Positions 21,734-64,000 of a stretch of 64,000 nt of DNA are shown here, in pieces. A program made the position numbers and the translations under genes. The first letter of the stretch is position 1, and each line of letters begins with the position of its first letter. Origin of the DNA: Natronorubrum daqingense (GTDB taxonomy: Archaea; Halobacteriota; Halobacteria; Halobacteriales; Natrialbaceae); NCBI RefSeq assembly GCF_001971705.1, contig NZ_CP019327.1, forward strand, positions 1,364,001 to 1,428,000, read 5' to 3'. Under the pieces are notes generated by a model. The model made no database searches and was not told the origin of the DNA. It saw only the letters and a program-made list of their open reading frames with translations.

Positions 21734-21808
21734 GCTCCGTTGGTGTAGTCCGGCCAATCATTTCGGCCTTTCGAGCCGATGACCAGGGTTCAAATCCCTG
21801 ACGGAGCA
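21734..21808 (+). tRNA. tRNA-Glu (anticodon TTC)
   Basis: 75 nt. Acceptor stem GCTCCGT pairs with ACGGAGC; discriminator A at 21808; no encoded CCA. The anticodon stem TCGGC/GCCGA closes the loop CTTTCGA, giving anticodon TTC. The T-arm is GGG TTCAAAT CCC. A TATA-like TTTTTA lies about 100 nt upstream (21634-21639), so a precursor with a leader is possible. A degenerate copy of its 3' end follows at 21897-21918. Confidence 0.95.
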
Positions 21809-21918
21809 CTCTTCTGAACGAACAACGTGAGTGAAGAAGGAGCGCACGCTCTGGGTTTGAACCACGGAAATCCGAGCGGTAAGGAGGATTTGCATCGGGT
21901 TCAAATCCCTGGCGGACA
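21809..21918 (+). repeat. tRNA-Glu trailing unit (degenerate): hairpin, antisense T-arm, 3'-end copy
   Basis: Directly after the tRNA come a short hairpin (CTCTTCT at 21809-21815 with AGAAGGAG at 21835-21842, one bulge), an antisense T-arm-like GGGTTTGAACC (21853-21863), a small inverted repeat (AAATCC 21868-21873 / GGATTT 21886-21891), and GGGTTCAAATCCCTG (21897-21911), which repeats the tRNA T-arm, followed by a diverged acceptor half. It cannot form a tRNA. The layout matches the units after tRNA-Ser and tRNA-Val but is more decayed. Confidence 0.7.
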
Positions 21919-22187
21919 CCCTTCCGACGTTCAACCTTTTGAGTTACGTCTACGATATTTGTTGTGTCTCGGTTTCTGATCGTGGAGTGGCAGCACTCGA
22001 GTTTCAGGCGATGGTGACTATTTCAGTACATAACACACGACCTTCTCGCCGTCTACATTCGTGTCCTTTCGATCTACAATTAGCTCTACTAATTGCTATC
22101 GACGATCAATATCTCAACCACGTTCGAACTCAATACAGCTACTGGCCAATGTATTTTTAATGGTGTATTTCCTTGGATAGGAAAACG

Positions 22188-43724: not shown

Positions 43725-43809
43725 GCCGAGATAGCCTAGCCCGGCCAAGGCGGTAGATTCGAAATCTACTGTCCTCACGGACTCGGGAGTTCAAATCTCC
43801 CTCTCGGCG
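43725..43809 (+). tRNA. tRNA-Ser (anticodon CGA)
   Basis: 85 nt. Acceptor GCCGAGA/TCTCGGC with discriminator G at 43809; no encoded CCA. Anticodon stem GTAGA/TCTAC closes TTCGAAA, giving CGA. A long variable arm (TGTCCTCACGGACTC region) confirms a class II serine tRNA. T-arm GGGAG TTCAAAT CTCCC. Followed directly by a hairpin and a second copy of the last 22 nt. Confidence 0.96.
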
Positions 43810-43958
43810 CTTTTCACGACGCAACACGGCGAGCGTAGCGAGCCACTGCGTCGTGAAAACGCGAACGGGGAGTTTGAAGTAGACGAGTCGCAGCCCGGGA
43901 AGCGAACGGAGTGAGCGACCCGGACCGTCTCGGTGTAGTTCAAATCTCCCTCTCGGCG
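43810..43958 (+). repeat. tRNA-Ser trailing unit: 13-bp hairpin, antisense T-arm, mirror motif, 22-nt tRNA 3'-end copy
   Basis: The 13-bp arms TTTTCACGACGCA (43811-43823) and TGCGTCGTGAAAA (43847-43859) are perfect inverted repeats. Then GGGGAGTTTGAAGT-AGACG (43867-43885) is a partial antisense of the tRNA T-arm, a 40-nt core contains AGCGAACGGAGTGAGCG, CGTCT pairs with AGACG, the 6 nt CGGTGT follow, and the last 22 nt (43937-43958) equal 43788-43809 of the tRNA exactly, ending at the discriminator base. The unit cannot encode a whole tRNA. Less clear remnants (hairpin-like TTTCGCGAAC, GTTTGACC) continue to about 44045, perhaps a decayed second unit. Confidence 0.85.
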
Positions 43959-55200: not shown

Positions 55201-55275
55201 GGGTTGGTGATCTAGTCCGGTTATGATACCTCCTTCACACGGAGGAAGTCGGCAGTTCAAATCTGCCCCAACCCA
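55201..55275 (+). tRNA. tRNA-Val (anticodon CAC)
   Basis: 75 nt. Acceptor GGGTTGG/CCAACCC, discriminator A at 55275. Anticodon stem CCTCC/GGAGG closes TTCACAC, giving CAC. T-arm GGCAG TTCAAAT CTGCC. A CTTAAG/TTTGAC promoter-like stretch lies about 30 nt upstream (55169-55180). Followed by a trailing unit closely like the one after tRNA-Ser. Confidence 0.96.
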
Positions 55276-55412
55276 TTTCTCGAGCGACAACCGACGAGGA
55301 GCGGCGCGACGAGTCCGTCGCTCGAGAAATGGAAACGGGTAGATTTGAACTAGACGAGCCGCGCGCAGCGAAGCGAGCACGTCTCGGCGGAGTTCAAATC
55401 TGCCCCAACCCA
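55276..55412 (+). repeat. tRNA-Val trailing unit: 13-bp hairpin, antisense T-arm, mirror motif, 22-nt tRNA 3'-end copy
   Basis: Perfect 13-bp arms TTTCTCGAGCGAC (55276-55288) and GTCGCTCGAGAAA (55317-55329). Then GGGTAGATTTGAACT (55337-55351) matches 14 of 15 positions of the reverse complement of 55391-55405; AGACG (55352-55356) pairs with CGTCT (55380-55384); a 23-nt core contains AGCGAAGCGAG; CGGCGG (55385-55390) is the unpaired 6 nt. The last 22 nt (55391-55412) repeat 55254-55275 of the tRNA exactly, ending with the discriminator base. Same layout as after tRNA-Ser, while its arms match its own host tRNA. The defence island begins after it. Confidence 0.88.
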
Positions 55413-55665: not shown

Positions 55666-58600
55666 ATGCTCTCGCTGGATCCGATCGTCGACAATACTGA
55701 TTCGACACTCGAGGAGACGTACAGGAAGGTCGTCCCATTGAGTGAAGAGATCCGTATTTCGACAGGCTACTTCTACCTGTCCGGCTTCGATCTGGTTTCG
55801 GAGGACCTCGACCAGTTAGCCGATCCCGAGACGCTCGGCCGCTCACCGATGCGGGTTCTGATGGGACGAAAGACGGACCGCCGGACTGCTTCGGAGATCG
55901 AGGAAGGATTCTCGTTACGCGAGCAGTTCAGAGAAGAACTCCAGGAGGACATCGAGGGCCTAAACCGCGCTCAAATCGAACGTCTCGATCGGCTTCGGGA
56001 CTTCATCGCGAACGACCTCATCGACGTCCGAGTGCGAGTCCCGGAAGATGGCTACTTCCACGCGAAGGGTGCGTGTTTCAGAGCGCCACCAGATTCCGAA
56101 CGGGCGAAGGACCACGAAGAGGACAAACGCGGAGCGGTAACCATCGTCGGATCCTCGAATTTTTCAGCAAGCGGGCAGCGAAGGAACGTCGAGTTGAACA
56201 TGACGAGTCAGGATCGACGGGAGGCGGAAGCGTTCGAGGAGTGGTATGACAACCAGTGGGCAAACGCCGAGGAGTTCAGCGAGGACATCGTCGAGGTCAT
56301 CGAGACCAGTGACAAGTACCAAGAGTGGCGAGAGAAGCAGCGAGCCGAATCGGAAAGCGACCAGGACGAAGGCGAACTCGGGACCTATCTCGAGCCCTTC
56401 GAACTCTACAAGCTCCTCGCGTACGACGAACTCGGCGGAAACGTCAGCAGCCGAGACAGTCCGCTCTATCACTTTCAGCGGCTCGGGTACGAGAGCGCGA
56501 AAGAGAAGCTCTCCACGTACAACGGCTGTATCATCAGCGACAGTGTCGGTCTTGGGAAGTCGTTCATCGGTTCGGAACTCCTCTACGACTACCGACACCG
56601 AGGAGACAGCTGTCTCCTGATCGTTCCCGCGAACCTCACGGATCAGTGGGAACATCTGCTCCAGAACGAAACAGACGAGGACGGCGACCCGTTCTTCGGT
56701 CTCGAGGTCGACGGCGCGCACCTCGAGGTCATCAGTATATCCGACTTCCAGAACCGATCGTACGAGGAGGTGCAGAAACTGCGCGAGGCGTTCGACGTGG
56801 TACTTATCGACGAGGCCCACCGCTTTCGGAACTCCGGCAAATGGCGGCCGAATCCGAGCCACGACGACGATTACAAGGGAACGCGCAGACACGCCAACCT
56901 CCGGCAGCTCCGTGGCAAGACGATGATCATGCTGACAGCGACCCCGATCAACAACTCCGCGACGGACCTGCGGAACCTCATCAGCCTGTTCACAAGCAAA
57001 GAGGAGTTGCGAAACAAGTCCAGTCTCGACTTCGACGCGTTCGCTGAGTACATCGATCTCGCCGACCAGCGAAAGCGAATCGTCGCCGGGAACGAGGAGG
57101 CCGACGAGGAGACGGAACGTCGAATCACCGAGCAACTGCAACGCCGCGCGCTCGAAATATCGGACATCCTAAACGAAGTGATGGTCCTTCGGACGCGAAA
57201 ACACGTCAAGGACGAGGTTCAGGACGGTGAAGAGTTCGAGATGAGTTTCGAGCCGCCGAGACTCTCCAAGGAAGAGTACTCGCTGCCCACTGCCTACCAG
57301 CCCATCTATCGAATGCTTCCGGACGTGATGGACGCGCTTCACCTCCCACACATCACGATCAAGAACCCGCAAGGCGGGAGCACGCTGAAGGCGCTGTACA
57401 AGCTCAACCTGCTCAAGCGACTCGAGTCCTCGACGTACGCGTTCGTCCAGTCCCTCGAGACGCTACACGAGAGCGAACGTCGGCTCCTCGGCCTGCTCGA
57501 CGGCCTTCCCGAGGACGAGGACATCGACGCACTCCGGTCCCTGCAGGAGGAAGAGAACGCCTCTACGCTCGAGGACTTCGTCGAAGGCAAAGACGCCGCG
57601 ACGGATCTCGAGGAGACCCTAGAGGAGTTCGGATTCGACACGGGCGTCGTTCGGGCCGGCGAAACCGACGCGCCGGACGAACTGGCCGACGCAACCGTCC
57701 GAGAGGTGAAGCGATACATTCGAGAGGACCTGACGCTGCTCGCGTACTTCCTGTCGCAGTTCATCGGCGACGTCGCCCACGACGCTGGCGACGTCAGCGA
57801 TCACGCCGTCGAAACCAGAAGCTGGCTACACGAGCACGGCGCCGGAACGCTTCCAGAAGTGCCCGAAGAGGAACGGGATCCGGTCTTGTACCCGGACAAC
57901 GACCTTAGTAACGTCGACGGAGCGACCCGCGAGTTCTACGAGTCGGTCTTCAGCCTGCGCAAGTTTCGGGATCCGAAGATCGATCGGCTCGCCGAGATCC
58001 TCGGCGCGTACGACAAGAAGACCCTCGTCTTCACCCAGTACCGGGGGACCGCGGAGTACGTCCATCGAGCGCTCCGAGAGGACCCCGAGTCGCCGCTCAC
58101 CGACGCGAACAGCGCGGTCGTGAAAGGCGGCGACGAGAACAAGCGAGCGGTCGTCAAGCGGTTCGCACCCGAGGCGTCCGGCTACCAACAGACGCTCGCA
58201 GAATCCGACGAGAGCGAACTCCAGTACGTTGTCGCGACGGACACGTTGAGCGAGGGCGTGAACCTCCAAGACGTTAATGTGGTCGTGAACTACGACCTAC
58301 CGTGGAATCCGATGCGAATCGTCCAGCGCGTCGGCCGAGTCGATCGAATCGGGAGTACCGCGGAGAAGTACGTCCACAACTTCTACCCCGACGGAGACAT
58401 CGAAGCGGCGATCAAATTGCTGGAACGACTGCAGGCGAAGATCAACGATATCGCCCTTATCGTCGGAAAGGAGAACAACATCCTCGATCCGAACGAGGAC
58501 CAGATCCTCGAGCAGGCGGGCGTCGAAACGCAGAAAACGATCGGCGAACTCGAGGTCGAGGAGATCGAGCGCTCGCTCAGAGAGTCTCGCGACGTCGAGG

Positions 58601-59466
58601 ACATCAACGAGCTCGATGACACGAGCGTTAACCCGCTGCTGCGCAACGCGGGCAGCGACGAACAGGGGGCGTTCCAACGGTTCCGCCTCAAACACGAACT
58701 GAACGAAGAGTTCGGGCTCTCGACGGACGACTTCGAGTTCGCCGAGGAGTACTTCGACTCACCGGTTGGTGAGCGGGGATTCCTGTATACGAACGCGGTC
58801 GATCACGAGCGAGGACCGCGACCAGGTGTGTTCGGACTCGCGCACCTTTGGTTCGACGAGGAGGACGACGCGCCACTCGGACGGGTACGGAGGGCCTTCT
58901 ACTACAAACCATTCGGCGACGACGTGAAGGAACGACCCGTCCGGATGCTCGGGTTGACGCCGGCGGTGGACGGGGACCCGATCACCGACGAAGATCGAAC
59001 CGACCGCGTACTCACAGACCGAGGACAGATCGAGGACGTCGTCGATGCCCGCCTCGAGGAGATTCGCGACAGCCAGGTCGAAGGAGCGTACCTCCAAGGT
59101 GGTCAGCACTCGAAGGAACAAGAGACCCTCATCAGCTTCTGCCAGCAGTACGTCGAGCCGAGACGGGGTGACGATCCGGATCCGAGCGGAGAGTACGACA
59201 CTATCGAGGATCGCTCTCGCGAACTTCGCGGCCGACTGAGCGACGTCGGTCTCAAAAATACCGACGAGGACCGCGTACTCCGCGAAAAGTTCCGCGACGA
59301 CGCCGAGTACGACGCACTCACCGAGTGGCCCGTCGAGGAGTTTCTGGGGACGCTCGAGGCGTTTCTCGAGGAGTACGTCGACGGATCGACCGAGTATCAG
59401 GATACGCTCGTCGGCGAGAGCGAAGTTCGCGCTCGATTGGTGTGCTGGGGCGTCATCGGATCGTAG
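55666..59466 (+). CDS. PLD-nuclease / SNF2-family helicase fusion (defence-type)
   Basis: 1266 residues. An N-terminal phospholipase-D-like domain has one HxK site (YFHAKG, ~128-133) and a following GSSNFSASG (~163-171). A superfamily 2 motor follows: Walker A-like SDSVGLGKS (~289), DEAH in LIDEAHRF (~381), LTATPINNS (motif III), and motifs V and VI in SEGVNLQD and RVGRVDRIGS. Such fused proteins are common in prokaryotic defence islands (for example near DISARM- or RM-type genes), where the motor is thought to act on invading DNA. TTTTATC at 55629-55635 gives a leader of a few nucleotides. GC is somewhat lower than in housekeeping genes. Confidence 0.85.
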   Translation: MLSLDPIVDNTDSTLEETYRKVVPLSEEIRISTGYFYLSGFDLVSEDLDQLADPETLGRSPMRVLMGRKTDRRTASEIEEGFSLREQFREELQEDIEGLNRAQIERLDRLRDFIANDLIDVRVRVPEDGYFHAKGACFRAPPDSERAKDHEEDKRGAVTIVGSSNFSASGQRRNVELNMTSQDRREAEAFEEWYDNQWANAEEFSEDIVEVIETSDKYQEWREKQRAESESDQDEGELGTYLEPFELYKLLAYDELGGNVSSRDSPLYHFQRLGYESAKEKLSTYNGCIISDSVGLGKSFIGSELLYDYRHRGDSCLLIVPANLTDQWEHLLQNETDEDGDPFFGLEVDGAHLEVISISDFQNRSYEEVQKLREAFDVVLIDEAHRFRNSGKWRPNPSHDDDYKGTRRHANLRQLRGKTMIMLTATPINNSATDLRNLISLFTSKEELRNKSSLDFDAFAEYIDLADQRKRIVAGNEEADEETERRITEQLQRRALEISDILNEVMVLRTRKHVKDEVQDGEEFEMSFEPPRLSKEEYSLPTAYQPIYRMLPDVMDALHLPHITIKNPQGGSTLKALYKLNLLKRLESSTYAFVQSLETLHESERRLLGLLDGLPEDEDIDALRSLQEEENASTLEDFVEGKDAATDLEETLEEFGFDTGVVRAGETDAPDELADATVREVKRYIREDLTLLAYFLSQFIGDVAHDAGDVSDHAVETRSWLHEHGAGTLPEVPEEERDPVLYPDNDLSNVDGATREFYESVFSLRKFRDPKIDRLAEILGAYDKKTLVFTQYRGTAEYVHRALREDPESPLTDANSAVVKGGDENKRAVVKRFAPEASGYQQTLAESDESELQYVVATDTLSEGVNLQDVNVVVNYDLPWNPMRIVQRVGRVDRIGSTAEKYVHNFYPDGDIEAAIKLLERLQAKINDIALIVGKENNILDPNEDQILEQAGVETQKTIGELEVEEIERSLRESRDVEDINELDDTSVNPLLRNAGSDEQGAFQRFRLKHELNEEFGLSTDDFEFAEEYFDSPVGERGFLYTNAVDHERGPRPGVFGLAHLWFDEEDDAPLGRVRRAFYYKPFGDDVKERPVRMLGLTPAVDGDPITDEDRTDRVLTDRGQIEDVVDARLEEIRDSQVEGAYLQGGQHSKEQETLISFCQQYVEPRRGDDPDPSGEYDTIEDRSRELRGRLSDVGLKNTDEDRVLREKFRDDAEYDALTEWPVEEFLGTLEAFLEEYVDGSTEYQDTLVGESEVRARLVCWGVIGS

Positions 59467-59746
59467 TTCGATCAACTGGAAAGTCGATAACGATTCGTTC
59501 GGAGGGGGAGATCAGTTCGATCTCGTTTCGTCGTTACACACCACTCACAGATCGACTCCCTCAGATATATTTGCCAGTCGTCGCCGAGTGGTGATGACTC
59601 GAAGAGCGATGCAAGCGCGTCGCCAGTAACATTGACGACTATATGGTAGCCCCGTGGATTCGGACTTTCAGATTACCGATTGAGTCGACAGCTATGCCGC
59701 CGCGAGTGGACTTCTTACCCGACCGGATAGTTGGACGGAGACGTGC

Positions 59747-60658
59747 TCAGCTAACGCGACTTGCGAATACGTCCCTGAATCGCTCCCCCATCTCGAGGAA
59801 CCAATCGACGTACTCCACCCACCGTTCGTCGTCGCCGAGGTCAGCGTCTCGCTTGACCATCACGATGCCGTCTTTTCGCTCTTCGTCCGGGGGGAGCCAC
59901 TCGGCGGCTTGCCCGAGCTCATCGTCGATAGTTTCGCGCTCCGCTTCGAGGGAATCGTAAATCGCGTCGTCCTTGACGACGATTCGCGTGTCGATCCAGT
60001 CGTCGCGAACGTGGAGCCAGAACCGCATCTTCACGTCCTGGGTTCCCACGGGCTGGCCGTACCAGCTGCTCTTCGAAGGCTTCCGGGCCGAGAGCGGCGT
60101 CTGCTGGGCCTGAATCTCGTTGCGCACCGTCGTCCAGAACTCGAGGCGAAGCGCCTGCGTCTCGGTGAGCTCATCGCTCTGTTTGAGCGAGTCTTTCCAG
60201 GCGCTCGGCTCCTCAATGGGGTTGAGTTTGACCGCGGGCGGCGAGTCCCCGATCTGCCACACCTCGAGCCTGATCGCGAAGAAGTCGACGCCCTCGCGCG
60301 TGTTGTCGTTGAGCCACTGGACCGCGTCGACGTGTTCGTCGTCGAAACTCTCGGCAACCCAGACGACGACGTCACCCTCGACGCCCGACGCGTAGGCGAT
60401 CGACTTCCCTAGGTGGGCGTGATCGGAGCTCCGGAGCTGGTTCTCGACGACGACCTCGCGGTCGGTGTCCTCGTCTCGAGCTAGTAAGTCCAGTCGGTAC
60501 TTTCCGACCCACCGTTCGGTGTCGACGACTTCGAGGTTGAGCCCGAGGACATCCTCCAAGTGGTCGACGTTCTCGGCGAGCCAGGGGGTGAAGTCGGCCT
60601 CCTCGTCCGGCCAGTGGTCAGTCAAATCGCGTTGCTCGAGATCACCAAATCCGCTCAT
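59747..60658 (-). CDS. DUF4268 protein with PD-(D/E)XK-like nuclease domain
   Basis: 303 residues. The N-terminal ~130 residues carry a nuclease-like core: KYRLDLLARD, then EVVVENQLRSSDHAHLGK, where D and E-x-Q would replace the usual D...E-x-K. The rest is the DUF4268 domain (WTTVRNEIQAQ, RFWLHVRDDW). Family proteins occur in defence islands and their function is not established. A TATA-like TATATA (minus strand, 60686-60681) predicts a leaderless mRNA from ATG 60658. It is read in opposite direction to the flanking genes. Confidence 0.72.
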   Translation of the reverse strand: MSGFGDLEQRDLTDHWPDEEADFTPWLAENVDHLEDVLGLNLEVVDTERWVGKYRLDLLARDEDTDREVVVENQLRSSDHAHLGKSIAYASGVEGDVVVWVAESFDDEHVDAVQWLNDNTREGVDFFAIRLEVWQIGDSPPAVKLNPIEEPSAWKDSLKQSDELTETQALRLEFWTTVRNEIQAQQTPLSARKPSKSSWYGQPVGTQDVKMRFWLHVRDDWIDTRIVVKDDAIYDSLEAERETIDDELGQAAEWLPPDEERKDGIVMVKRDADLGDDERWVEYVDWFLEMGERFRDVFASRVS

Positions 60659-60811
60659 TGGATCCTCATCTCGAGCGCACTATATAGAAAGCTGCTACTT
60701 AGAGGACGAAATGAGAGTGACGCTTCCCTGAGAACCGGCGAGTATCTGCGATATCGTGAGTGCTTCCTCTCTAGCCAAGTTTATTATGACTAGATAACAC
60801 TCGTAACTGTA

Positions 60812-62602
60812 ATGGACACAATACCCACGAAGGAACGTTTGATTGAAGATCTACAGTCATTTGCGGAGGAAGTAGACGGCGTTCCGACTGTTCGTGGAAT
60901 GAGAAATGACGGTCCACATTCTCCTCATCATTACAAACAAGAGTTCGGGACGTGGCACGACGCGTTACGAGCGGCAGATATTCAGCCGACTCACGGAGTG
61001 ACACCGGATGTTGATCGGGACGCGCTAGTAACTGAACTACAGAAAGTTAACGAAATAACAGAACGCCCACCACGACGTGCTGACATCGATGAACACGGCC
61101 AATACCCGTATACACTCTACGACGAAGAGTTCGAGTCGTACATTCGCGCCCTCGAGGAAGCCGAGATAGACCCTGACGAGAAACAGTACCGATTTAGTTC
61201 GGTAGAAACGCCCGAAGAAAAGCAAGGATCCGCGAACATCGAAAAGTTACGGAGCAACGGACCAACCCCTTCCTCCGAGTTACCACAGGGACGGAGTACT
61301 AAAGATCGTCAGCTCGGGGTATGGAAGTTCGATATGAACTCCGGATCTACACAACCTGCAGATGCCATGTATTATATACACGAGGAACACCCACCCGAGT
61401 TGGTTCTTCGTCGGTTCTTCCAACACAATCTCCACGTACTGGAATACCGTGATGCCCACGGAATCAAGATGGCGATCAAGGACCACCAACCATCGTGGAA
61501 AGAAATTGGACGGAGGATCGTCGACGAACTGTTAGAAGAGGGAGCTACTCCAAGCGCTGAGTTTCAGAATCTGGTCGTGATACGGACTCACGACGATAGT
61601 GTACTGAATTACTGCTTCGATAGTTCCGTTTCTACGGTAGTCGACGTGGATGAACTCCCCGTCACAGCGGGAGGCCAGACTGGTACCAGACCGGTCTGGG
61701 GCTTCCCTCGAGAAACCCAGGATTTGTGGCGAACCCTGTCCGAACGTGATGGGTTGATATTCAGTACACAAGCAGGCACCCTCACTCACTACGTTCCAAT
61801 CGTCGAAAAACTCGAGAATACCGACGTTATGACCGAGTTGTGGGTCGAATACGAAAACGGGGTACGAAGCAACGGGATAGATCGGCCGTGGCCGTACCTG
61901 GTGATTGGTGGGGAGGTACAGGAGATCGATATCCAGGTGGAAGTTCTCCTCGAAGAGATCGGGTCGGAACGAACTGATGAGCCGATACAGTGGTTGGATG
62001 AAGAGGCGCTAAAGCCGTTTGTAAACACGTACGGGGACTTCGAGTCGTACGCGCGTCATTGTGAGTCTTCGGAGTCGGAAACTCCCAGCTCGCCAAACAG
62101 CACTGTCGACGATCGCTCTTCGCCTCAAGACGTAATAGACTCCCTGTTCCAGATCACTCCGAAAGACATTCCTCGAACTGAATCGAACTCCAGTCTCGGA
62201 GAGATAAATCACGGAACGCTCGAAGCCGCGTTCAGACGTGGGATACGCAACATCTATCAGAAGTGTTCCATCTGTGGCGATCTGCTCGAGTCTCCCGATG
62301 GAAGCCCGGATTTAGAAGCTGCACGTATCCTCCCGAAGGAACACGATGGACCAGCCGTACTCCAAAACGGACTTGGACTTTGTTCTCGCCATCACTGGGC
62401 GTTCACCAATGGATGGTTCGAGATCGACACGGATTACGAAATCCGCCTTCGAGAGTACCCTGAGCTACAGGGCTACGACGAGTTGAAGCAGTATGACGGC
62501 ACGTACCTACACGTGCCTACGGACGGATCACTCCAACCACATTCTCACTACATCCGGCAACGAAACCAAATCGGTACTACCACTACGACACGCAGTGAGT
62601 GA
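60812..62602 (+). CDS. HNH endonuclease with N-terminal homing-endonuclease-associated repeats
   Basis: 596 residues. Two N-terminal HNHR-like repeats (residues ~8-55 and ~70-115), each ending in a W/Y-x-x-A/I-L-x-x-A helix, probably bind DNA. A long middle region is unrecognised. The C-terminal HNH-type domain holds CSICGD and CSRHHWAFTNGWFE, with Cys pairs and His for zinc and catalysis. TATA-like TTTATTA at 60780-60786 indicates a leaderless message. AT-richer than native genes. It is likely a restriction or defence nuclease rather than a mobile homing enzyme, because it is not inserted in another gene. Confidence 0.75.
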   Translation: MDTIPTKERLIEDLQSFAEEVDGVPTVRGMRNDGPHSPHHYKQEFGTWHDALRAADIQPTHGVTPDVDRDALVTELQKVNEITERPPRRADIDEHGQYPYTLYDEEFESYIRALEEAEIDPDEKQYRFSSVETPEEKQGSANIEKLRSNGPTPSSELPQGRSTKDRQLGVWKFDMNSGSTQPADAMYYIHEEHPPELVLRRFFQHNLHVLEYRDAHGIKMAIKDHQPSWKEIGRRIVDELLEEGATPSAEFQNLVVIRTHDDSVLNYCFDSSVSTVVDVDELPVTAGGQTGTRPVWGFPRETQDLWRTLSERDGLIFSTQAGTLTHYVPIVEKLENTDVMTELWVEYENGVRSNGIDRPWPYLVIGGEVQEIDIQVEVLLEEIGSERTDEPIQWLDEEALKPFVNTYGDFESYARHCESSESETPSSPNSTVDDRSSPQDVIDSLFQITPKDIPRTESNSSLGEINHGTLEAAFRRGIRNIYQKCSICGDLLESPDGSPDLEAARILPKEHDGPAVLQNGLGLCSRHHWAFTNGWFEIDTDYEIRLREYPELQGYDELKQYDGTYLHVPTDGSLQPHSHYIRQRNQIGTTTTTRSE

Positions 62603-62621
62603 GGCGTTCAGGCAGTACGAA

Positions 62622-63185
62622 CTATCGTAACTGCTCTGTGATCTGCAAGAACCGGAACGCCGGCTCGCCGTAGGCTTTCGTCTCGTCGGCCGCGAGCGTC
62701 CGAAGCTCGTTGACGCACTCGGTGTACGTCTCGTTGATCACGAACTCGATGGACTCGCCGTGCTCAGCTTGGAACTCGCTGGACAGCACCTCGAGCCCGT
62801 CGGTTAGAATCCCGTCGACGACGTAGGGTGCCCAGAGCTGGAAGACGTACTCGTCGGCATCGTCGAATACCCTGGTCACGTAGCCGTGGTCGGATCGGAA
62901 CTTCGTTTCGAGCTTCTCGAGGGAGTACTGGTAGCTCTCGTTTCCGAAACTGGACCAGTTGTCGGTGTCGGGCGTTCCGGAGTACAACTTCCCGTTCAGG
63001 TGGGTGACTACCTCGCAGGCGTAGACGGTCTGGGTGCCATCGCTCGAGTCGATCGCGACGACGTCGATCTCCATCTGCTCGCCGTCCTCCTTCGACCTCG
63101 AGTTGTAGCTGACGACCTCGGCGTCGGTGACGACTTTGTGGTACGCGCCGACGATGAGTTCGCCGATCTGGGCGTTTGAAACCAT
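62622..63185 (-). CDS. PD-(D/E)XK-like nuclease adjacent to methylase
   Basis: 187 residues. IGELIVGAYHKVV at the start, MEIDVVAID followed by TVYACEVVTHLNG resembles the restriction-endonuclease core (E-x-D ... E-x-T in place of E-x-K). No other family is recognised. It starts 9 nt after the stop of the upstream methylase on the same strand, so the two are a likely operon and possibly a restriction-modification pair. It converges on the HNH gene. Confidence 0.6.
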   Translation of the reverse strand: MVSNAQIGELIVGAYHKVVTDAEVVSYNSRSKEDGEQMEIDVVAIDSSDGTQTVYACEVVTHLNGKLYSGTPDTDNWSSFGNESYQYSLEKLETKFRSDHGYVTRVFDDADEYVFQLWAPYVVDGILTDGLEVLSSEFQAEHGESIEFVINETYTECVNELRTLAADETKAYGEPAFRFLQITEQLR

Positions 63186-63194
63186 TCGTCTCGA

Positions 63195-64000
63195 TTACTC
63201 CATCGGCCCTGCTTCGTCGAGTTCGTCGTATTTCTCGAGCACCATGTCGAAATAGGCCTCGTCCATCAGCCGGGGGTTCTCGACGCGGTGGAAGTCCTCG
63301 AGTACGAACGCCGTGTCCTCGCGCTCGAGGCCGTAGGCGTGGAACGCCGCGGCGTCGATCTCGGCCTGGAGTGCCCGGCGCTCGGACGTCTCGGTCGCGG
63401 GGTCGATTCCGCCGAGTCGCTCGCGCATCTCGGCGAACGCCTCGCCGTAGCAGTTGAGGCGAGCGGCTCGAGCGGAGATGTAGTGGAACCAGTCGTCGCC
63501 GTCGGTGAGGCGGGGCATCTGGGACTCGAGGAATTTGTATTTGACAATATGGGTGTCGACCTTGGTCCGTATGAGAAAGTCGAAAGGAATACTGTTCAGT
63601 AACCCGAGATGGACAAACAGTTCTTTGTCAGTGAACTCCCGCTCATATGCATCATGAAGTGGGAAGTTTGACAAATTTTCCTCTGTAGGATTAATTCTAA
63701 ATGGTTTGATAGTCTGGACAGTGTGAAGACACGTTATATCTGGTGGCAACACCGAAGCAACTAACGTACGTTCGTTAGTGGAATTCGTAATGTCTCGATA
63801 TGCTATTCGGTAATCTGAACAGTCTAAGAGAATATCTTGTTCCTGAAGTTGCTTTCCTCGACGTTCTTCAAGTAAATCATTGACAAATTGGATCTGCGAT
63901 TTACTGGTAGAAGGGCCGTCAAAGTTCTCGTAGATTGATTTCTTTAAGGAACCTTTATTGAATTTCTTCTCCCGGATACGATTCTTGGTACTGTTTTCGG
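63195..64000 (-). CDS. N6-adenine DNA methyltransferase/restriction enzyme (Eco57I class), C-terminal part
   Basis: The frame is open from the window edge; about 268 C-terminal residues are seen and the catalytic NPPY motif lies outside. The visible part matches the target-recognition/C-terminal region of the Eco57I, PglX and DrmMI-type family: CSDYRIAYRDITNSTNERT, then LNSIPFDFLIRTKVDTHIVK. A GTG inside (63752) is not a start because the coding sequence continues upstream to the edge in frame. It is followed by the nuclease gene 9 nt later. Confidence 0.72.
   Translation of the reverse strand, partial: ENSTKNRIREKKFNKGSLKKSIYENFDGPSTSKSQIQFVNDLLEERRGKQLQEQDILLDCSDYRIAYRDITNSTNERTLVASVLPPDITCLHTVQTIKPFRINPTEENLSNFPLHDAYEREFTDKELFVHLGLLNSIPFDFLIRTKVDTHIVKYKFLESQMPRLTDGDDWFHYISARAARLNCYGEAFAEMRERLGGIDPATETSERRALQAEIDAAAFHAYGLEREDTAFVLEDFHRVENPRLMDEAYFDMVLEKYDELDEAGPME

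Follow-up and report, generated by a model that had tools for sequence, protein, structure and literature searches.

Mobile DNA has long been known to settle at tRNA genes, and decades of study have gone into haloarchaeal genomes. Casposons insert at tRNA 3' ends with a target-site duplication. In Escherichia coli, the rtT repeats stand in tandem behind tRNA-Tyr (tyrT), each with a copy of the tRNA 3' end. The attC sites of integrons are folded single-stranded recombination sites, whose inverted arms mimic the target site. REP/BIME sequences and the IS200/IS605-derived PATEs are short non-coding palindromes associated with Y1 HUH transposases, and PATEs are common in haloarchaea (PMC2817692, PMC3119063), where their insertion causes no target duplication (PMC3119063). 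The attachment sites used by archaeal integrases correspond to the part of the tRNA gene that is spanned by the copies described below (PMC8371274). Lastly, the Hvol-IV1 provirus of Haloferax volcanii reportedly carries two partial tRNA-Ala repeats at its end (PMC4390866).

The unit behind tRNA-Val(cac)

The window analysed here is a stretch of 64,000 nt from the genome of Natronorubrum daqingense (G000). The host gene, tRNA-Val(cac), lies on the + strand at 55201-55275 and is recognized by both ARAGORN and Rfam RF00005. Its 22-nt 3' end, from the T-loop to the discriminator (S0, 55254-55275), is the duplicated segment and recurs as an exact direct repeat. The elements that follow lie on the same strand. 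Hairpin 1 (hp1, 55276-55329) consists of an imperfect inner hairpin and a perfect 13-bp outer stem, whose arms occupy 55276-55288 and 55317-55329. Next comes an antisense copy of the T-arm (A, 55337-55351), which gives the inverted repeats I1 and I2 and has as possible partners S0, thereby extending hp1, or the downstream copy S1. The core hairpin (55352-55390) is of the AGAC...GTCT type, and core types of this family are common to several tRNAs; its edges are AGACG (55352-55356) and CGTCT (55380-55384), and six nucleotides further on the unit is closed by S1, an exact 22-nt copy of the tRNA 3' end (55391-55412). Every part of the fixed layout announced by the original prediction could be located.

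The same prediction described an inverted repeat between the antisense and sense T-arms. This repeat is indeed present but is longer than claimed, reaching into the tRNA and the hp1 arm: over 35 nt, 55254-55288 (T-arm, acceptor, and hp1 arm) pairs with 55317-55351 at 86%, so that the antisense arm can pair with the tRNA's own T-arm or with the copy. No shuffle of the 64-kb window contained a second copy of the 22-mer. Folded as RNA, the unit reaches -66.3 kcal/mol (z = -5.1 vs shuffles). With its 137 nt crossed by just one spurious open frame, it is too small to encode anything, as had been supposed. An island-like region, defensive or genomic, lies directly 3' of the unit (55666-63752) and holds an HKD+Snf2-type helicase (PADLOC C3a139, E = 2e-82), a DUF4268 protein (PDC-S11, E = 1e-104), a homing-repeat HNH protein, and a fragment similar to type IIG restriction enzymes.

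The closest described systems each share some of these traits. Like the haloarchaeal units, rtT repeats are tandem, directly downstream of a tRNA, and provided with a tRNA 3'-end copy; they differ in being confined to one locus and one lineage and in having a longer unit without an antisense T-arm, whereas the haloarchaeal units are found behind dozens of tRNAs throughout an archaeal order, and each of them fits the tRNA that it follows. Within the window, Rfam 15 at gathering score returned tRNA families only and no other RNA family, RtT included. The resemblance to attC sites lies in inverted arms that can form a double-stranded target mimic, strand-specific hairpin features, and tandem arrays; arms that fold into such a mimic on one strand are found here, in the form of a T-arm stem and biased loops. 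Unlike integron cassettes, the units hold no cassette genes, the target is the tRNA T-arm, and the whole tRNA 3' end is duplicated. With REP/BIME and PATE sequences they share a short non-coding palindromic nature with conserved imperfections and hairpins of the single-stranded-DNA type, but they are restricted to tRNAs and bring a 20-22-nt target duplication where PATEs bring none (PMC3119063). A Y1 transposase was considered as the motor and rejected: seven unit-bearing genomes have no PF01797 match, which is present in two unit-free genomes, G010 and G060, the latter with ten Y1 matches.

Integrative elements that target tRNAs (PMC8371274) likewise duplicate the tRNA 3' end and restore the gene. 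The direct repeats do resemble an attachment-site pair, as had been noted, and this look is shared with integrative elements; the units, however, come without integrase and without genes, and neither an integrase gene nor cargo lies between the repeats of the 137-nt unit. They further differ in their interior of about 100 nt, their two structured modules, and their presence at most tRNAs at once. Compared with casposons (PMC4046053), the target duplication is longer and the unit contains no Cas1, polymerase, or any other gene. The expectation that no named haloarchaeal element has this structure also held, none being found in the open-access papers searched.

Distribution and turnover of the units

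A survey of the N. daqingense genome, built from search matches and extracted stretches of 3' flank, places one to three units, each of 80-210 nt, behind about 30 of the 42 tRNA genes (at least 28). The order of parts is constant, from hp1 through A and the core to the sense copy (S), which runs up to the discriminator. Copies of the tRNA's own 3' end sit 80-230 nt downstream of the gene, and the tRNA-specific acceptor 14-mer has a match in its own flank at 29 of 42 genes, as against 6 of 1714 swapped pairs (0.35%). All three tRNAs of the window carry a unit. Behind tRNA-Glu(ttc) (21734-21808) the second unit extends over 21808-21919 with its copy at 21899-21918, and behind tRNA-Ser(cga) (43725-43809) the third extends over 43809-43958 with its copy at 43938-43957, both on the + strand. 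At Lys(ttt), units are exact duplicates.

A covariance model of hairpin 2 (hp2, model R1), trained on 23 units, gives 39 matches in this genome at E <= 0.0015. They include the tRNA-Glu(ttc) unit (G000:C1:1385850-1385918, E = 0.0015), the tRNA-Ser(cga) unit (G000:C1:1407867-1407957, E = 2.3e-13), and the tRNA-Val(cac) unit (55338-55411 of the window, + strand), whose E = 1.2e-16, obtained in its own genome, is not independent as this unit belongs to the training set. All matches but one (38/39) begin no more than 600 nt behind a tRNA on their own strand. Zones of this kind take up 0.4% of strand positions. The 39th match is a member of a displaced tRNA-Thr(cgt) array. Because 23 of the 39 extracted units are R1 training sequences, the independent support comes from the tRNA-based scan, which was made without the model. 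The original prediction would have yielded to chance or to simple insertion remnants had the layout followed only one or two tRNAs or been equally frequent at non-tRNA sites, and these counts do not refute it.

Several tRNA loci show other arrangements. At tRNA-Arg(gcg) and tRNA-Pro(ggg) (L048, L046), stretches of 100 nt and 60 nt are cleanly present or absent at the tRNA ends; they contain acceptor-end copies only, without an antisense T-arm, and are perhaps a second, shorter kind of unit. Other tRNAs, such as Ala(tgc), Cys, Ser(gct), Leu(cag), and Leu(gag) (L009, L037, L049, L050, and others), are free of units in the compared genomes, and their flanks are often strongly conserved among congeners, which suggests that insertion is not tolerated there. 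At tRNA-Thr(cgt), a 28-kb island (G000:C1:1918300-1947200; L300/L301) parts the tRNA from its unit array, with a PF00589 tyrosine integrase at the array end and a junction repeat of about CCCTCCACCGGCTT. At tRNA-Gly(tcc) (G000:C1:654200-657300; L299), a complete unit is followed 2.5 kb downstream by a further core and tRNA-end copy; a sensor-kinase-like and a helix-turn-helix-like gene lie in between, as if unit pieces flanked cargo.

Across the order, a covariance-model search finds R1 matches in 384 of 394 genomes and 91 of 95 genera, and most genomes score at or near 12, the highest number counted per genome. Copying of the own tRNA is likewise seen in a congener (19/43 tRNAs) and in another family (23/42). 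A sample of the phylum outside the order yields nothing but seven borderline single matches, all from one family and each the identical match at E about 2.5e-4 (G436, G452, G462, G483, G487, G491, and G546). Within the order, the R1 search finds three good-quality genomes free of units (G010, G060, and G285). Direct inspection of about 30 of their tRNA loci revealed no copy at any of them, with the T-loop targets present, and absence is thus all-or-none. When 84,980 species genomes were scanned for an exact pattern, 11 stretches came up, all of them haloarchaeal (Halosimplex, Halostagnicola, Haloterrigena, Halorussus, Halorientalis, Halovenus, Natrinema, and Haladaptatus), 10 of which carry the own-tRNA copy; Natronorubrum bangense has the same tRNA with its unit at 85.6% identity. 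Core patterns are absent from 2.9 million viral contigs, one unit compared with phage records gave no match, and a plasmid collection gave two matches only, both on Natrialbaceae megaplasmids that bear the tRNA gene itself.

Comparison with a close relative (G373), 97% identical at the tRNA-Val(cac) locus, shows how the units turn over. Many arrays differ by whole units that are added or missing exactly at the tRNA end, with precise indels at Ile, Arg(tcg), Met, Ser(cga), His, Asp, Glu, and Val(tac). The flank alignment picks up after exactly one unit length at Ile, Arg(tcg), Met, and Ser(cga), and within one or two bases of it at Glu, Asp, and Val(tac). The additional G373 unit at Ser(cga) lies between the tRNA and the older unit, the order of units at Leu(taa) is swapped, and tRNA-Val(cac) has no unit in G373, where the flank is unrelated. 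A more distant congener provides an occupied versus an empty site at Leu(caa). The best match of an hp1 or core is found at the same tRNA for 58-60% of units in G373 and for 9-24% in the more distant congener G314, despite 87-92% identity in some flanking stretches of the latter. Many of these whole-unit differences could be deletions between direct repeats.

The two modules are replaced independently. Between congeners, Ser(tga) has kept hp1 and exchanged its core, while Val(cac) has kept the core and exchanged hp1; in G023, the tandem pairs at Phe and Arg(cct) have a common hp1 and differing cores. Within one genome, different tRNAs carry cores of 89-92% identity, which extends from the T-loop of A through the T-loop of S and ends where the tRNA-specific stem starts. 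A resembles its own tRNA more than permutation would predict, as far as the T-loop and some four nucleotides past it; the sense copy matches through the acceptor end. Wherever drift has set the copy apart from its tRNA, A sides with the tRNA in 13 cases and with the copy in two, which shows that pairing between A and the copy is not maintained by compensation.

Hairpin character and rival explanations

The hairpins behave more like folded DNA than like RNA. Counted over 183 units, isolated mismatches of the G-T and A-C kinds are about equally frequent in hp1 stems (16:14), whereas the acceptor and T stems of the tRNAs give 64 G-T and 5 A-C in the same comparison; the preference for G-U over A-C expected of a functional RNA is thus missing in hp1. 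Unrestricted counts of G-T and A-C are 13 and 15 for hp1 and 60 and 54 for hp2. Core stems contain a recurrent C-A mismatch, and the clean mismatch test is therefore that of hp1 only. Among DNA mini-hairpins, GNA triloops and Py-GA-Pu pairs are known for their very high stability. C-GNA-G triloops occur 244 times on the tRNA-sense (top) strand and 60 times on the bottom strand, and predominate over GNRA or UUCG tetraloops, while a paired GA motif in hp1 is found in 144 units and on the opposite strand in 7. Under DNA parameters, the sense strand is the more stable one in 135 of the 183 units, and under RNA parameters in 139, a bias that would likewise be expected of an RNA. Taken together, the mismatch pattern and the strand-specific loops favour folded single-stranded DNA over functional RNA, and quasi-palindrome correction could add to the hairpin pattern.

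A role at the RNA level would make the unit a trailer of the tRNA precursor, a folded RNA that regulates maturation or gives rise to a small RNA; in the maturation variant, the antisense T-arm would pair alternately with the tRNA or with the decoy copy. The strong fold (z = -5.1), strand-specific loops with a stabler tRNA-sense strand, and a position directly behind tRNAs, where the antisense arm is able to pair with either partner, all agree with it. We nevertheless consider it quite unlikely: hp1 lacks the wobble preference of the tRNA stems, A follows the tRNA and not the drifted copy, the prevailing loops are GNA triloops rather than the GNRA or UUCG tetraloops, and presence per tRNA is erratic among congeners. 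The discrete small-RNA product that the original prediction implied is disfavoured by the same mismatch counts and by the failure of A to track the drifted copy. Of two specific RNA readings, an H/ACA or kink-turn interpretation of the hp1 GA pairs is disfavoured, as the stems do not behave like RNA, and a BHB intron as substrate of the splicing endonuclease was rejected, the folds having internal loops other than the 3-4-3 bulge-helix-bulge. In circRNA-seq of Haloferax volcanii, the seven BHB circles reported are tRNA introns, pre-rRNAs, and one mRNA leader (PMC7714728).

At the DNA level, the units may serve the host as decoy or spare attachment sites, or as insulators that shield tRNA genes from integrases or read-through. 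Their copies span the attachment-site part of tRNA genes (PMC8371274), they are kept in nearly every genome of the order, and N. daqingense tRNA loci do host islands. Yet the tRNA-Thr island inserted at the tRNA itself, shifting the array by 28 kb, so the decoys went unused there; the units are replaced rapidly, and shielding gives no reason for the antisense arm or for cores common to different tRNAs, which makes such a benefit unlikely. That the units are mutational by-products, old tRNA 3'-end duplications whose palindromic form is preserved by template switching and which homologous recombination between repeats reshuffles without any mobility enzyme, is very unlikely in our judgement. Direct repeats of 20-22 bp do permit precise deletion and tandem duplication, as in the exact Lys(ttt) duplicates, and equal G-T and A-C mismatches and the swapped order at Leu(taa) speak for it too. 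However, hp1 and core form recurrent order-wide families at different tRNAs instead of deriving from each flank, three genomes lack units in all-or-none fashion, and with no source of new units loss would be expected to prevail over time. Inverted triplication by template switching from the own flank was rejected as sole origin, the cores being common families unrelated to the upstream sequence of the tRNA. Remnants of ordinary tRNA-targeting elements, attL/attR pairs with a deleted interior, are the least probable source, hardly credible in spite of 22-nt repeats that look like att duplications and the two partial tRNA-Ala repeats reported at the end of Hvol-IV1 (PMC4390866). Such remnants would hardly show one common two-hairpin arrangement, with cores related to each other, behind about 30 tRNAs and in nearly all genomes; the genuine tRNA-Thr island has a separate junction outside the array, and the viral contigs and phage records gave no match to core patterns and to one unit, respectively.

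A proposed family of mobile cassettes

The units copy their own tRNA, come and go as wholes at exact borders, exchange hp1 and core independently, have cores in common between tRNAs with borders at the T-loop, show DNA-like mismatches and a strand bias, and are spread over the order, with absence being all-or-none. On these grounds, we propose that the units are haloarchaea-wide, short, non-coding, non-autonomous mobile DNA cassettes confined to tRNA gene 3' ends (probability roughly 0.58). Each insertion would duplicate the tRNA 3' end from T-loop to discriminator, which would leave the tRNA intact and provide the copy as the next junction, and a copy in that role would give both tandem arrays and precise loss. 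We infer that insertion, beyond deletion within arrays alone, is the source of new units. Mobility would act on the folded tRNA-sense DNA strand, through a single-stranded intermediate: in hairpin 2, the antisense and sense T-arms may form a double-stranded mimic of the tRNA T-arm, the presumed crossover site, and a putative trans-acting recombinase, encoded by the host or by an element, would recognise this mimic as folded attC sites are recognised in integrons. A full integron-like system, in which folded single-stranded cassettes mimic the T-arm, are moved into and out of most tRNA 3' ends by a haloarchaeal recombinase, pass on their cores between different tRNAs via the common T-loop, and use the tRNA genes for docking, is a more tentative and somewhat doubtful extension.

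No recombinase emerged from the Y1 and tyrosine-integrase families that were counted. The broad tyrosine-integrase family PF00589 is present in all genomes counted and uninformative on units, and its counts do not separate unit-bearing from unit-free genomes; nor was a larger autonomous version of the unit seen. The weak points of the cassette mechanism are the polarity of insertion and the tRNA-specificity of A. A simple insertion bringing its own sequence does not explain why A remains tRNA-specific a few nucleotides past the T-loop, which would call for copying or for quasi-palindrome correction as a further step.

No prior description of the units was found in the open-access literature searched, and the traces met there are incidental, such as the tRNA-Ala repeats reported at the end of the H. 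volcanii provirus (PMC4390866). A repeat family that appears undescribed in these papers stands behind most tRNA genes in about 97% of the sampled genomes of the order, and it accounts for the 'partial tRNA copies' encountered in the annotation of tRNA loci, which may be mistaken for attachment sites. Its existence raises the questions of which enzyme moves the units, why they keep to tRNA ends only, and whether they influence how tRNAs are expressed or how viruses and plasmids integrate. The units resemble a type of mobile DNA not described before, whose entry leaves the target gene intact; should they prove to be mobile, they could be regarded as a new non-autonomous family of mobile DNA.
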